A DNA stretch of 54,874 bases, taken from the NCBI GenBank assembly GCA_016208465.1, contig JACQXZ010000012.1, positions 3,141-58,014 of the forward strand. The letters run 5' to 3'. The DNA is from Actinomycetota bacterium. Its GTDB lineage: Bacteria > Actinomycetota > Aquicultoria > JACQXZ01. Shown here one piece after another: positions 27,473-49,251 of this stretch (positions within the stretch are counted from its first letter, which is position 1; each line of letters opens with the position of its first letter). Both the position numbers and the translations under genes were made by a program. The notes beneath the pieces are model-generated. The model searched no databases. It was not told where the DNA came from and saw only the letters and a list, made by a program, of their open reading frames with translations.

Positions 27473-29247
27473 TATCGAATCACTTCTTTTATCATCCCAT
27501 CAGTTTCAGCTTCCAACGCCAGAATATCTTTGCGTATTTCTCCCAGACTTCTCAGTGGTTTATATTTATAAAAGTATTTGGTAAAGTTAATTTCGTAACC
27601 AACCTTAGTTTTACCGTGATCAATCCAGGCATCCGACAGATGAGGCAAAACTTCGCGTTCAAAGTATTTCTCTGCGTCTTCTTTTGATGGCACATTTTCA
27701 GAATCCCTTAAATCAGAATCAGGCACGGGGTTTCCTTTGTGGTCTTTTTCAATTTCGCCTTGCTCGTTGCGTTTGGGTCGTTCTACTGTTATCCGTTGAG
27801 ATCCAAAATCTTCATTATCAAAAATCTTGCAATAAGGTCCTTCTTCAAAATCGCTGTAAATTTTGGTAATCCGTTTAATGGCTTCTTCGTGTATCTCTTT
27901 TCGTTTATTGCCTAAACTGCGAAGCATTTTGCTATAAAATGGATTGTCTTTATCTTCCTTGTCCGCTCCGGTGACATTAATCAATTGCACCTTTCCTTTT
28001 CGTTCCGGGCTTTTTCTGTCGGTTACTATCCAAATATAAGTAGCAATGCCAGTATTGTAAAACAACTGGTCCGGCATAGCGACAATGGCTTCCAGCATAT
28101 CATTTTCAATAATCCACTTTCGGATATTACTGGGACCGCTTCCCGCGCCGCCGCTAAACAAAGGCGAGCCATTGAAAACAATCGCAATGCGGCTTCCAAC
28201 ATCCCCCTTACCCCCTTCAAAGGGGGATTTTTTTGTATGTTTCATTTTGCTGATCATGTGCTGTAAAAACAGCAATGAACCATCGCTGATTGAAGGCAAT
28301 CCAGCCCCAAAACGTCCGGCAAAGCCTCTGCTTTCGTATTCATCCTTTATGTGCTTCTGGGCTTTTTTCCAGTCCACTCCAAAAGGCGGATTGCTCAACA
28401 TATAATCAAAAGTTTCGTCTTCCAAGCCATCCTGGGTAAAACTGTTGCCAAATTTTATGTTTGCCGGATTTTGACCTTTAATTAACATGTCCGATTTGCA
28501 AATGGCATAGGATTCCGGATTAATTTCCTGTCCGAATAGCTCCAGCCGCGCGCCCTTGTTAAGATCGTGAAGATATTCGTCCGCGATAGAAAGCATACCG
28601 CCAGTACCGCAAGCCGGGTCGTAAAGCGTTTTCACGATACCTTCTTTTCTTAAAATATCTTTATCATCCACGAAAAGCAGATTTACCATCAGGCGGATGA
28701 CTTCTCTTGGGGTAAAATGTTCCCCGGCAGTTTCATTGCTAAGTTCGGCAAATTTTCGGATCAACTCTTCAAAAATGTATCCCATCTCCATGGTATCAAC
28801 ATCTTTAAAAGCGTCACCTTTTTTCGAAAATTCTTTTATGATTAAATACAACAGGTCATATTCGTCCAGTTTTTTAATTTGATCTTCAAAGCTGAAATAA
28901 TCAATTATCTCTTTCGCGCTGATTGAGAAACCATTGATGTAGTTGCGAAGATTCGCGGCGACATTATTATGGTCATTAGCAAGTTCATTAAAATCAAATT
29001 TGCTGCGGTTATAGAATTTAACCTTGGTAACTCCATTTAAAATAGGTTCCAGTACTTCCGGTTTTTTATCCTTGTGTTTTTGATATGCTTTCAGTACCTC
29101 TTTTTTTGTAGGTTCAAGCACCATATCCAGCCTTCTCAGCACCGTAAAAGGCAGGATAACTTTTCCATAATCAGCCTGTTTGTAATGCCCTCGCAGTAAA
29201 TCGGCAATGGACCAGATGAAGTTTGCTTTTTCTCTAAAATTGTTCAT
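27472..29247 (-). CDS. hsdM: Type I restriction-modification methyltransferase
   Basis: 591 residues: helical N-terminal domain (FIWSIADLLRGHY start, as in HsdM), then an N6-adenine methyltransferase with DPACGTGGML (SAM motif I) and NPPFG (catalytic motif IV). About a dozen extra residues (KKSPFEGGKGDV) are inserted before the conserved GSRIAIVFNGSPLF; they translate a G/C-run palindrome. The ATG at 29247 is only two bases from an IS end, so its own leader and promoter have been replaced. Its stop overlaps the hsdS-hsdR start. Confidence 0.93.
   Translation of the reverse strand: MNNFREKANFIWSIADLLRGHYKQADYGKVILPFTVLRRLDMVLEPTKKEVLKAYQKHKDKKPEVLEPILNGVTKVKFYNRSKFDFNELANDHNNVAANLRNYINGFSISAKEIIDYFSFEDQIKKLDEYDLLYLIIKEFSKKGDAFKDVDTMEMGYIFEELIRKFAELSNETAGEHFTPREVIRLMVNLLFVDDKDILRKEGIVKTLYDPACGTGGMLSIADEYLHDLNKGARLELFGQEINPESYAICKSDMLIKGQNPANIKFGNSFTQDGLEDETFDYMLSNPPFGVDWKKAQKHIKDEYESRGFAGRFGAGLPSISDGSLLFLQHMISKMKHTKKSPFEGGKGDVGSRIAIVFNGSPLFSGGAGSGPSNIRKWIIENDMLEAIVAMPDQLFYNTGIATYIWIVTDRKSPERKGKVQLINVTGADKEDKDNPFYSKMLRSLGNKRKEIHEEAIKRITKIYSDFEEGPYCKIFDNEDFGSQRITVERPKRNEQGEIEKDHKGNPVPDSDLRDSENVPSKEDAEKYFEREVLPHLSDAWIDHGKTKVGYEINFTKYFYKYKPLRSLGEIRKDILALEAETDGMIKEVIR
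28201..28228. repeat. G/C-run palindrome inside hsdM
   Basis: CCCCCTTA-CCCCCTTCAAAGGGGG, translated on the minus strand as part of KSPFEGGKGDV. Same family as at 1683, 45062 and 48697. Confidence 0.8.
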
Positions 29248-44394: not shown

Positions 44395-45771
44395 TTGGAT
44401 TTTAAAGAAGCCATTCAGTATCTTGAATCAACAATTAAATATGGAATTAATCCAAGTCTTAGCAGAATTATTGATTTATGCAACAGACTGGGGAATCCAG
44501 AGCGCAAATTTAAAGTAATTCATATTACAGGAACAAACGGCAAAACATCCACAACAAAAATTATTTCCTCTATTCTTAATCAAATGGGATTCACCGTTGG
44601 GGCTTATACTTCTCCTCACCTTGAAACAGTAAGAGAAAGAATTGTTGTCAATAATCGGATGATTTCAGAAAGAGATTTTGCGGAATGTATTTCGAAAATA
44701 AAGCCCATGGTTGAAGAAGTAAACAAAAAACACAAGGAGCACCTAACCTATTTTGAAATTTTAACCGCGCTTGCTTTTGTATATTTTGCGGAAAAAGAGG
44801 TAGATTGTGCTGTAATTGAAGTTGGCATGGGCGGGAGATGGGATGCCACAAATATTGTTGTGCCCGATGTTGCGGTAGTGCTTAAAATCAGGTTAGATCA
44901 TACTGATTTATTGGGCAACACTATTGTTGAGATTGCAAAAGAGAAGTCTAAAATAGTTAAGAAAGGCTGTAAAGCAATAACCTCCGAATCGCAAAAAGAT
45001 GTTTTAAGGATTATCAGGGAACGCTGCAGGCGCGAGAAAGTTGAATTAAAAGTTTATGAAGATAACCCCCCTCTGTCCCCCCTTGGTAAGGGGGCTCACC
45101 CCCCTCTGTCCCCCCTTGGTAAGGGGGGAATTAAAGGGGGGTTATCAGACGAAAAAGGTTTTTCCTCTATTATAAAATCAAAGAAAGACGGCAATTGGTT
45201 AATTGATATTAAAGGAATTTATTCTGCCTATAAAAATTTAAAGCTTCCTCTGATTGGAAGGCATCAGATTGACAATTGTGCGGCGGCTGTAGCGGCAGTA
45301 GAACTATTTTACGGGAAAGCTTTGCCTGTCGAGAAGCTAAAGAAAGCGCTTGCCAAAGTAAAATGTTTTGGGCGGCTTGAATTAGTTAGCGAGAATCCTC
45401 TTATTGTTTTGGATGGAGCTCATAATCCTGATGGCGCGACGGCTCTTTCAAGAGCGCTTAGAGACGAGTTTGATTACGAACATCTTATTTTAATTATAGC
45501 GGTTCTTTACGACAAAGATGTGGAAAGTATTTTTAATGAACTGATTCCCCTTGCTTCAATGGTAGTAGTTACCCAGAATTCAAATAACCGTTGCGCGCCA
45601 GTGGAATTTTTGAAGGAAATAGTGGCTGGATTTAATTGTGATTTTATGGTTGAACCAAAACTTTCCTCGGCAATAAAAGCAGGATTAGATTATTCGGGCA
45701 AGGATGACTTAATCTGTATTACAGGTTCTTTATATACAGTAGGCGAGGCAAGAGAAATATTAGTAAAATAA
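44395..45771 (+). CDS. folC: Folylpolyglutamate / dihydrofolate synthase
   Basis: 458 residues. ATP-binding ITGTNGKTSTTKI, the SPHLETVRERI block, VIEVGMGGRWDATN and the C-terminal LDGAHNPDGA domain define FolC, which adds glutamate to folates. About 30 extra residues near 225-253 (two copies of PPLSPLGKG, then GGIKGGL) are G/C-run palindromes inserted in the linker between the two domains. TTG start immediately after the valS stop. Confidence 0.93.
   Translation: MDFKEAIQYLESTIKYGINPSLSRIIDLCNRLGNPERKFKVIHITGTNGKTSTTKIISSILNQMGFTVGAYTSPHLETVRERIVVNNRMISERDFAECISKIKPMVEEVNKKHKEHLTYFEILTALAFVYFAEKEVDCAVIEVGMGGRWDATNIVVPDVAVVLKIRLDHTDLLGNTIVEIAKEKSKIVKKGCKAITSESQKDVLRIIRERCRREKVELKVYEDNPPLSPLGKGAHPPLSPLGKGGIKGGLSDEKGFSSIIKSKKDGNWLIDIKGIYSAYKNLKLPLIGRHQIDNCAAAVAAVELFYGKALPVEKLKKALAKVKCFGRLELVSENPLIVLDGAHNPDGATALSRALRDEFDYEHLILIIAVLYDKDVESIFNELIPLASMVVVTQNSNNRCAPVEFLKEIVAGFNCDFMVEPKLSSAIKAGLDYSGKDDLICITGSLYTVGEAREILVK
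45062..45146. repeat. Tandem G/C-run palindromes inside folC
   Basis: CCCCCCTCTGTCCCCCCTTG-GTAAGGGGG occurs twice, 33 bases apart, followed by AATTAAAGGGGGGTTAT that pairs back with the start. The 33-base period keeps the frame. Confidence 0.85.
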
Positions 45772-48628: not shown

Positions 48629-48655
48629 GGTCACAAGGATACAAGTCACAAGTAA

Positions 48656-48663
48656 ATAAATTT
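48656..48663. repeat. Target-site duplication, left copy
   Basis: ATAAATTT, identical to 49153-49160, directly abutting the GGTTCTTTCTCA end of the mini-element. Confidence 0.8.
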
Positions 48664-48696
48664 GGTTCTTTCTCAAATCGAGTGGGTAATGCGTTA

Positions 48697-48731
48697 AATC
48701 CTCCCCTTAACAAGGGGAGGAAAGGAGGGGT
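48697..48731. repeat. Inner left palindrome of the mini-element
   Basis: CTCCCCTT-AACA-AGGGGAGG followed by AAAGGAGGGG. The last part lies six bases before an in-frame ATA at 48737 and would serve as a ribosome site for the nuclease gene. Confidence 0.8.
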
Positions 48732-48781
48732 TTACGATAAAGGTATTTAATAAAACAGAGCAAAAAATAAAGAGAAAGACA

Positions 48782-49117
48782 TTGAGGAATAATATGCCTC
48801 TGGCAGAGGTCATCTTATGGAGCAGATTAAAAAGCAGACAACTTGGAGGCTATAAATTCAGGAGACAATATAGCGTTGAATATTTTGTGATAGATTTTTA
48901 TTGTCCTGAGTTAAAATTAGCCATAGAAGTTGATGGGGATTCCCACTATACAGAAAAAGCAGGTTCATCAGATAAGGATAGACAAATTAAGATTGAAAGT
49001 TTTGGCATTAAGATTTTGAGATTTAATAATAAGGAGATATATAAAAATTTAGATGGGGTATTATTAAAAATATTGGAACAGATTAAACAAATAACCACCC
49101 CTGCCCCTCCTTGCTAA
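48782..49117 (+). CDS. DUF559/Vsr-like endonuclease
   Basis: 111 residues from TTG 48782. AEVILWSRLKSRQLGGYKFRRQ and VIDFYCPELKLAIEVDGDSHY are the DUF559 core, a Vsr-like nuclease fold with Asp and Glu-x-Asp at the metal site. The family usually has about 15 more N-terminal residues; here they are present in frame (VFNKTEQKIKRKT) but begin at ATA 48737, six bases after GGAGGGG, where ATG would be expected. The last residues (TTPAPPC) and the stop are encoded by the right inverted repeat. Role unknown; it may act on the element's ends. Confidence 0.8.
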   Translation: MRNNMPLAEVILWSRLKSRQLGGYKFRRQYSVEYFVIDFYCPELKLAIEVDGDSHYTEKAGSSDKDRQIKIESFGIKILRFNNKEIYKNLDGVLLKILEQIKQITTPAPPC

Positions 49118-49130
49118 GGAGGGGATTTAC
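49095..49130. repeat. Inner right palindrome of the mini-element
   Basis: CCACCCCTGCC, then CCCTCCTT-GCT-AAGGAGGGG. Inverted relative to the left copy and related to the units inside folC, hsdM and the HMA gene. Confidence 0.8.
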
Positions 49131-49152
49131 CCGCTCGGAATGAGAAAGAACC

Positions 49153-49160
49153 ATAAATTT
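49153..49160. repeat. Target-site duplication, right copy
   Basis: ATAAATTT, directly after the GAACC end of the mini-element. Confidence 0.8.
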
Positions 49161-49251
49161 TAACTTACAACCTGTGACTTTTATGTGAGTCAATTTGACA
49201 ATAAAGTTTCTTTTATAAAGAATAAATATTTTTAAAGTAAAGGGATATGTA

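Follow-up and report, generated by a model that had tools for sequence, protein, structure and literature searches.

A DUF559 nuclease gene between triplex-motif repeats in an ISL3-like, transposase-less element: a candidate counterpart of the RAYT/REP pairing

Few dispersed repeats are as common in bacteria as intrastrand-triplex motif (TM/PIT) repeats, whose record in E. coli goes back to about 2000; Hoyne et al. are said to have worked on these elements earlier. To our knowledge they have no known origin, with reportedly no mobility gene nearby, and we likewise know of no substrate for DUF559/YcjD, a very common family of orphan nucleases. TM/PIT elements have been reported from E. coli, Synechocystis and Neisseria, among others, and the E. 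coli TM was shown to form a triplex in vitro (Holder et al. 2015, PMC4666352). That study found no mobility gene or activity near E. coli TMs, offered genome instability as their only function and does not mention DUF559/ycjD. Kosinski et al. (2005, PMC1189080) linked YcjD to Vsr and predicted a PD-(D/E)XK fold. No DNA partner or mobility context for YcjD/DUF559 is proposed in the open-access literature that we found and, judged by title and abstract, none of the open-access papers mentioning DUF559 is about such repeats. A nuclease-type gene is paired with palindromes in the RAYTs, which according to published descriptions invariably lie between two inverted REPs (Nunvar et al. 2010, PMC2817692). 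Mobile insertion cassettes (MICs), as described, lack a transposase of their own and become active through a related insertion sequence (IS) (PMC3129680).

The locus analysed here lies in a window of 54,874 nucleotides, by which we mean the whole stretch of DNA examined, from an Actinomycetota genome of 1.75 Mb in 105 contigs. Read to base level, it is a 489-bp element (Table 1), at an hdrB-hdrA site, with 26-bp imperfect inverted ends, the outermost 12 bases of which are perfect: the left end is GGTTCTTTCTCA-AAT-CGAG-T-GGGTAA and the right end, as its reverse complement, GGTTCTTTCTCA-TTC-CGAG-C-GGGTAA. A perfect 8-bp repeat, ATAAATTT, abuts both tips. Span, inverted ends and duplication, all claimed in an initial annotation of this DNA, were re-read from the sequence and have exact coordinates. 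The G/C palindromes that it had placed inside the ends are present on both sides and are recognised here as probable intrastrand-triplex motifs. Of its further claim, that removal of the element restores an ordinary GTCACAAG/CTTGTGAC word hairpin, the inverted word pair in the flanks stands, but the hairpin is imperfect, with 15-nt arms that are 87% complementary; words like this pair are also found elsewhere in the genome. A chance origin of the ends and duplication was considered and ruled out: among the 18 exact inverted 12-mer pairs lying 200-1500 bp apart in the whole window, only the element's own pair is directly bordered by an exact 8-bp direct repeat, and none of 30 Markov-simulated windows yielded such a pair.

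Table 1. Features of the element and its borders, in window coordinates
Feature	Position	Strand	Length	Remarks
Whole element: transposase-less ISL3-type shell with TM-DUF559-TM unit inside	48664..49152	+	489 bp	
Target-site duplication, left copy	48656..48663	.		ATAAATTT
Target-site duplication, right copy	49153..49160	.		ATAAATTT
Left terminal inverted repeat	48664..48689	+		GGTTCTTTCTCAAATCGAGTGGGTAA; resembles resident ISL3 IS ends (GGTTCTTTCTTAAAAAAGTTGG)
Right terminal inverted repeat	49127..49152	-		GGTTCTTTCTCATTCCGAGCGGGTAA
Left predicted intrastrand-triplex motif	48699..48732	+		TCCTCCCCTT-AAC-AAGGGGAGGA-A-AGGAGGGGTT, tail toward gene
Right predicted intrastrand-triplex motif	49093..49124	-		CCCCTCCTT-AGC-AAGGAGGGG-CA-GGGGTGGTT, tail toward gene
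DUF559 (PF04480) Vsr-like PD-(D/E)XK nuclease gene	48782..49117	+		First canonical start TTG 48782

GTCACAAG-type words flank the element at 48630-48655 and 49160-49185 of the window and also occur before the C66 end (L036); they are perhaps a local repeat or a target preference.

The gene carries a full DUF559 domain (Pfam, E 2e-30) and belongs to the same protein family as the YcjD/DUF559 orphan nucleases (PMC1189080), with a solved homologue in PDB 3HRL (E 5e-17); its Pfam matches are to DUF559 and related restriction-type families only. As initially annotated, it is the sole gene of the element: Pfam finds only DUF559 inside 48664-49152, with no ISL3 DDE transposase (PF01610) in that span and no match of the gene to the Y1 HUH tyrosine transposases (PF01797). 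Its conserved reading frame is open already from before 48752, upstream of the TTG start. Thirteen residues are invariant in the DUF559 family, and the family-invariant residues are intact in the window gene. Purifying selection acts on the nuclease (dN/dS 0.06-0.19).

We then compared the outer ends with those of other elements. The window genome contains seven DUF559 loci, all flanked by G/C hairpins, and GGTTCTTTCTCA-type ends are present at three of them: the window element, a 509-bp copy on contig C3 with a perfect 8-bp duplication (AAAGAAAA) and a copy on C11 with an internal deletion. Copies on C73, C60 and C66 are truncated or one-ended. A strict-pattern search for the terminal inverted repeat in 99 relatives gave no match; slightly changed ends were found separately in genus g4 of the same class, where three genomes (G003, G015 and G020) have DUF559 elements with the related end GGTTCTTCTCCA...AGTGGGTA, including a 611-bp element in G003 with a perfect 8-bp duplication (AGAATTTA). 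At one site in this genus the three genomes differ: there is no insertion in G003, a 222-bp DUF559 deletion derivative in G015 and, in G020, a 659-bp element that shares the ends but has a GIY-YIG nuclease in place of DUF559. At another, G003 has its 611-bp element and G015 the identical insertion without the gene. These variants argue that the shell is mobile and that the nuclease unit is exchangeable. A search for phage-borne copies gave only three weak matches.

An ISL3 transposase, which passes the NCBIfam ISL3 model, is present in two of seven genomes searched, namely the window genome and G003. The ends of these two ISs (GGTTCTTTCTTA-AAAAAGTTGG and GGTTCTTTCGTA-TTTAAGGTGC) can be aligned with the element ends, with close agreement confined to the outermost ~12 bases and the AGT.GG block, and their perfect duplications (ATAATTTC and TAAAAGAA) are AT-rich and 8 bp long, like that of the element. 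Both resident transposase genes look frameshifted, and no currently active ISL3 source was found there. The element resembles ISL3 ISs, MICs and MITEs in its GG-starting ~25-bp ends, its 8-bp AT-rich duplication, its passenger, the lack of an internal transposase and the related IS in the same genome, to which genus g4 adds an empty site for a same-end element. It differs from them in that the passenger is a nuclease unit with repeat ends of its own, and in that a similar shell can instead hold a GIY-YIG nuclease unit. Together, the similar IS ends and duplications, the same-end copies, the deletion derivatives and the empty site indicate that the shell is a mobile, transposase-less ISL3 derivative of the MIC type, with the DUF559 unit as its exchangeable passenger. 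Thus, the initial proposal of a mobile element is borne out, and both searches that it had recommended returned examples: same ends on C3, on C11 and in genus g4, and an empty site in G003 for a same-end element of that genus. Neither of the outcomes that it had named as refuting came about. It had left open whether DUF559 is cargo or engine; cargo of an ISL3-type shell agrees with these findings, while a DUF559 transposase producing the 8-bp duplication is unsupported.

The palindromes inside the shell belong to a much wider set. At nearly all DUF559 loci they follow one plan: pyrimidine arm, loop, purine arm, some 3 nt of spacer and, as the tail, a mirror image of the purine arm, with G standing at G, and A or T at A, of that arm. 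A mirror tail of this kind is the rule for an antiparallel purine-motif intrastrand triplex. Both palindromes of the element have this form, a pyrimidine-purine hairpin followed by a mirroring tail, and on sequence grounds we assign them to the TM/PIT elements. Among 172 hairpins whose tails had not been used for selection, and with the spacer fixed at 3, the tail was a perfect mirror in 61 and a perfect direct copy in 2. Tail A or T stood opposite arm T at 243 of 299 positions, versus 53 of 646 at arm C, in the mirror register only, and shuffling tails between loci lowered the score from 0.884 to 0.650 +/- 0.014. The DNA object, with its C-rich arm, loop, G-rich arm and mirror G-rich tail, is identical to that described for TM/PIT elements (PMC4666352). 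Further TMs of the same class lie at 1681-1724 and 28201-28226 of the window, and a TM pair at 45065-45143 lies within folC (44395-45771), where it keeps the reading frame and the protein gains NPPLSPLGKGAHPPLSPLGKGGIKGG. Upstream of a Sphingomonas DUF559 gene (L190, ~1440-1490) the hairpin-to-tail spacer is itself a small hairpin (ACCGGCGAAGCCGGT).

TMs and DUF559 genes are associated across phyla. The 83 loci examined come largely from DUF559 relatives in Nitrospirota, Patescibacteria, Bacteroidota, Chloroflexota, Cyanobacteria, Planctomycetota and Proteobacteria. A TM lay no more than 250 bp from DUF559 at 69 of these, against 13 of 406 control windows displaced within the same loci, and TMs stood on both sides at 40, against a single control window. 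Within the element's own phylum, TMs accompany 8 of 11 strong DUF559 genes and none of 18 weak matches, for the most part DUF559 domains of larger proteins, and they are likewise missing from all 14 GIY-YIG genes of related genomes. Two of the strong genes that lack a TM (L149 and L150) sit among TGTTTCACGTGAAACA (parS-like) sites. The detector also found TMs flanking DUF559 in Neisseria gonorrhoeae, Deinococcus, Azospirillum, Sinorhizobium and Photobacterium, and by eye they can be seen, with shorter arms or longer spacers, at the Picosynechococcus, Pseudanabaena and Sphingomonas loci. An E. coli TM is located ~160 bp from the 3' end of ycjD in E. coli K-12 and, in a diverged E. coli allele, immediately beside the DUF559 gene. 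Strong DUF559 was present in two of the three TM-rich genomes of a 297-genome co-occurrence scan. Its covariance model, which is narrow, covers one loop type and was used with strict filters, gave no TM for many of the genomes with strong DUF559. An empty site for E. coli ycjD was rejected as not clean, ycjD-less strains having the eefRABCD operon at fabI-sapF (PMC12817139).

The TM-DUF559-TM segment is also the unit of homology between unrelated contexts. Where otherwise unrelated contexts share homology, the match stops no more than 5 bp from the outer edge of the TM in ~60% of cases, a figure that holds for either side; Sphaerospermopsis and Anabaena, for example, have a common 519-bp unit (91% identity), the only match between the stretches compared. 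Such units are found within the pnt operon of Sphingomonas and the paa and hpa gene clusters of Deinococcus (L190, L191 and L185), and the pnt genes of many other plasmids have no DUF559 insert. In Gastranaerophilales, the TM-DUF559 cassette is inverted between conserved flanking genes (L102 and L104 vs L113). Both tails point inward in 41 of 52 two-sided units, so that two inverted palindromic repeats flank the gene, as at RAYT loci. Similarity of TM arms goes with DUF559 identity (Mantel r=0.46, p=0.0005), also among pairs below 60% identity (r=0.39). No general target duplication was found at the TM edges of TM-bounded units. Insertion into pre-existing palindromes, of which there are some striking cases, was set aside because the signal was driven by few loci and by TM composites. 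In Marinomonas (L118 and L129), TM1-linker-TM2 composites repeat around DUF559, like REPINs/BIMEs.

These units resemble RAYT/REP systems in several respects: one nuclease-type gene lies between two inverted palindromes, which are also present as many gene-less copies; the repeats occur in pairs and clusters; and enzyme and palindrome sequences co-vary. They differ in that a RAYT is an HUH tyrosine transposase (PF01797) while the enzyme here is a PD-(D/E)XK Vsr-like nuclease, and in that the repeat here is a triplex motif, with a mirror tail as its defining feature; for REPs, a GTAG/CGTC head before the palindrome is characteristic. TMs adjoin DUF559 in many phyla, most DUF559 units elsewhere lack GGTTCTTTCTCA-type outer ends, and the RAYT-like relation would be that between DUF559 and the inner palindromes. 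The RAYT analogy drawn in the initial annotation pointed in the right direction for these, but not for the outer ends and duplication, which we attribute to the ISL3-type shell.

The best overall explanation, and one that we regard as likely, is thus of two nested layers, an ISL3-derived shell around a cognate TM-DUF559-TM unit. An ISL3 transposase acting in trans would bind the ~26-bp GGTTCTTTCTCA ends and insert the element with an 8-bp AT-rich duplication. The passenger would be a stand-alone DUF559 gene between two TMs, their third-strand tails usually toward the gene, and DUF559 would be the cognate partner of these repeats in a RAYT/REP-like pairing. Most likely it recognises the hairpin or triplex of the single-stranded TM; it would then cleave or nick beside it, and repair or recombination could copy TMs to new places and invert, delete or relocate the cassette between them. 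The comparisons suggest that the DUF559 nuclease family is the partner of the widespread TM repeats, and by analogy we propose that DUF559 is to TM repeats as RAYT is to REPs. The stronger statement, that stand-alone YcjD-type DUF559 proteins are dedicated mobility enzymes of TM/PIT repeats, forming a second, independent nuclease-palindrome system beside RAYT/REP that acts on triplex- or hairpin-forming DNA, we consider only slightly better than evenly balanced. Counting against the two-layer explanation are genome G033, which has at least 23 TMs and in which DUF559 was not detected (96% completeness), and the three of 11 strong own-phylum DUF559 genes without a TM (L147, L149 and L150). The same holds for the many strong-DUF559 genomes to which the narrow covariance model gave no TM, the lack of a general duplication at TM-bounded units, the frameshifts apparent in both ISL3 transposase genes and the limited agreement between ISL3 and element ends.

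Could DUF559 instead be the transposase of a minimal autonomous transposon, with the GGTTCTTTCTCA ends and the 8-bp duplication its own products? DUF559 is indeed the only gene of the intact elements, and several DUF559 elements, from two families of the class, share these ends. But a resident DDE transposase has similar ends and an equal duplication length, a same-end element carries a GIY-YIG nuclease and no DUF559, and most DUF559 units elsewhere have neither these ends nor any general duplication, which makes this reading highly improbable. A homing-endonuclease-like selfish gene would account for the data differently: DUF559 would cut TM-less alleles or TM sites, the gene being copied in by break repair, and the TM would be target rather than product. 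Vsr-like homing nucleases do exist (the EDxHD family), and the units inside the pnt, paa and hpa clusters would suit such a gene; however, dozens of gene-less TMs in one genome suggest that the TMs themselves multiply, and homology bounded by TM edges on both sides fits an end better than a target. We therefore judge homing unlikely.

More weight, though still on the doubtful side, goes to the possibility that DUF559 has an unrelated job in defence or repair and that TMs gather around it through homologous recombination between pre-existing TMs, or as terminators. TMs are abundant, dispersed repeats (71 hairpins vs 3 in the reversed control), the inverted Gastranaerophilales cassette would agree with recombination between them, and PADLOC gives DUF559 weak matches to restriction-type nucleases. 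Against this, TMs are absent from the other small nuclease genes of related genomes and from the weak DUF559-domain matches, TM type tracks DUF559 sequence even in distant pairs, and the tails are strongly inward; in addition, TMs had no promoter or terminator activity in an earlier study, as reported in PMC4666352.

If DUF559 is the enzyme of the TM repeats, as the two-layer explanation would have it, two long-standing loose ends would be joined, the origin of TM/PIT elements and the substrate of DUF559. The dispersal of a major repeat class would then become testable in E. coli K-12, as would a part of bacterial genome instability and the peptides that the repeats write into proteins (PPLSPLGKGG-like insertions). 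To this the window element adds that TM-DUF559 units can apparently be picked up and moved on by an ISL3 transposase, presumably in trans.

GIY-YIG genes may offer a parallel. Small GIY-YIG nuclease genes adjoin other very common dispersed repeats (GTCATTCCGAGCGAAGCGAGGAATCT and GATTCCCAGTCAAGCTGAGAATGACA) at L231 (G020:C110), L226 (G000:C102, in the window genome) and L227 (G011:C104), perhaps as a further nuclease-repeat partnership, and one of these repeat-adjoining genes rides in an ISL3-type shell.
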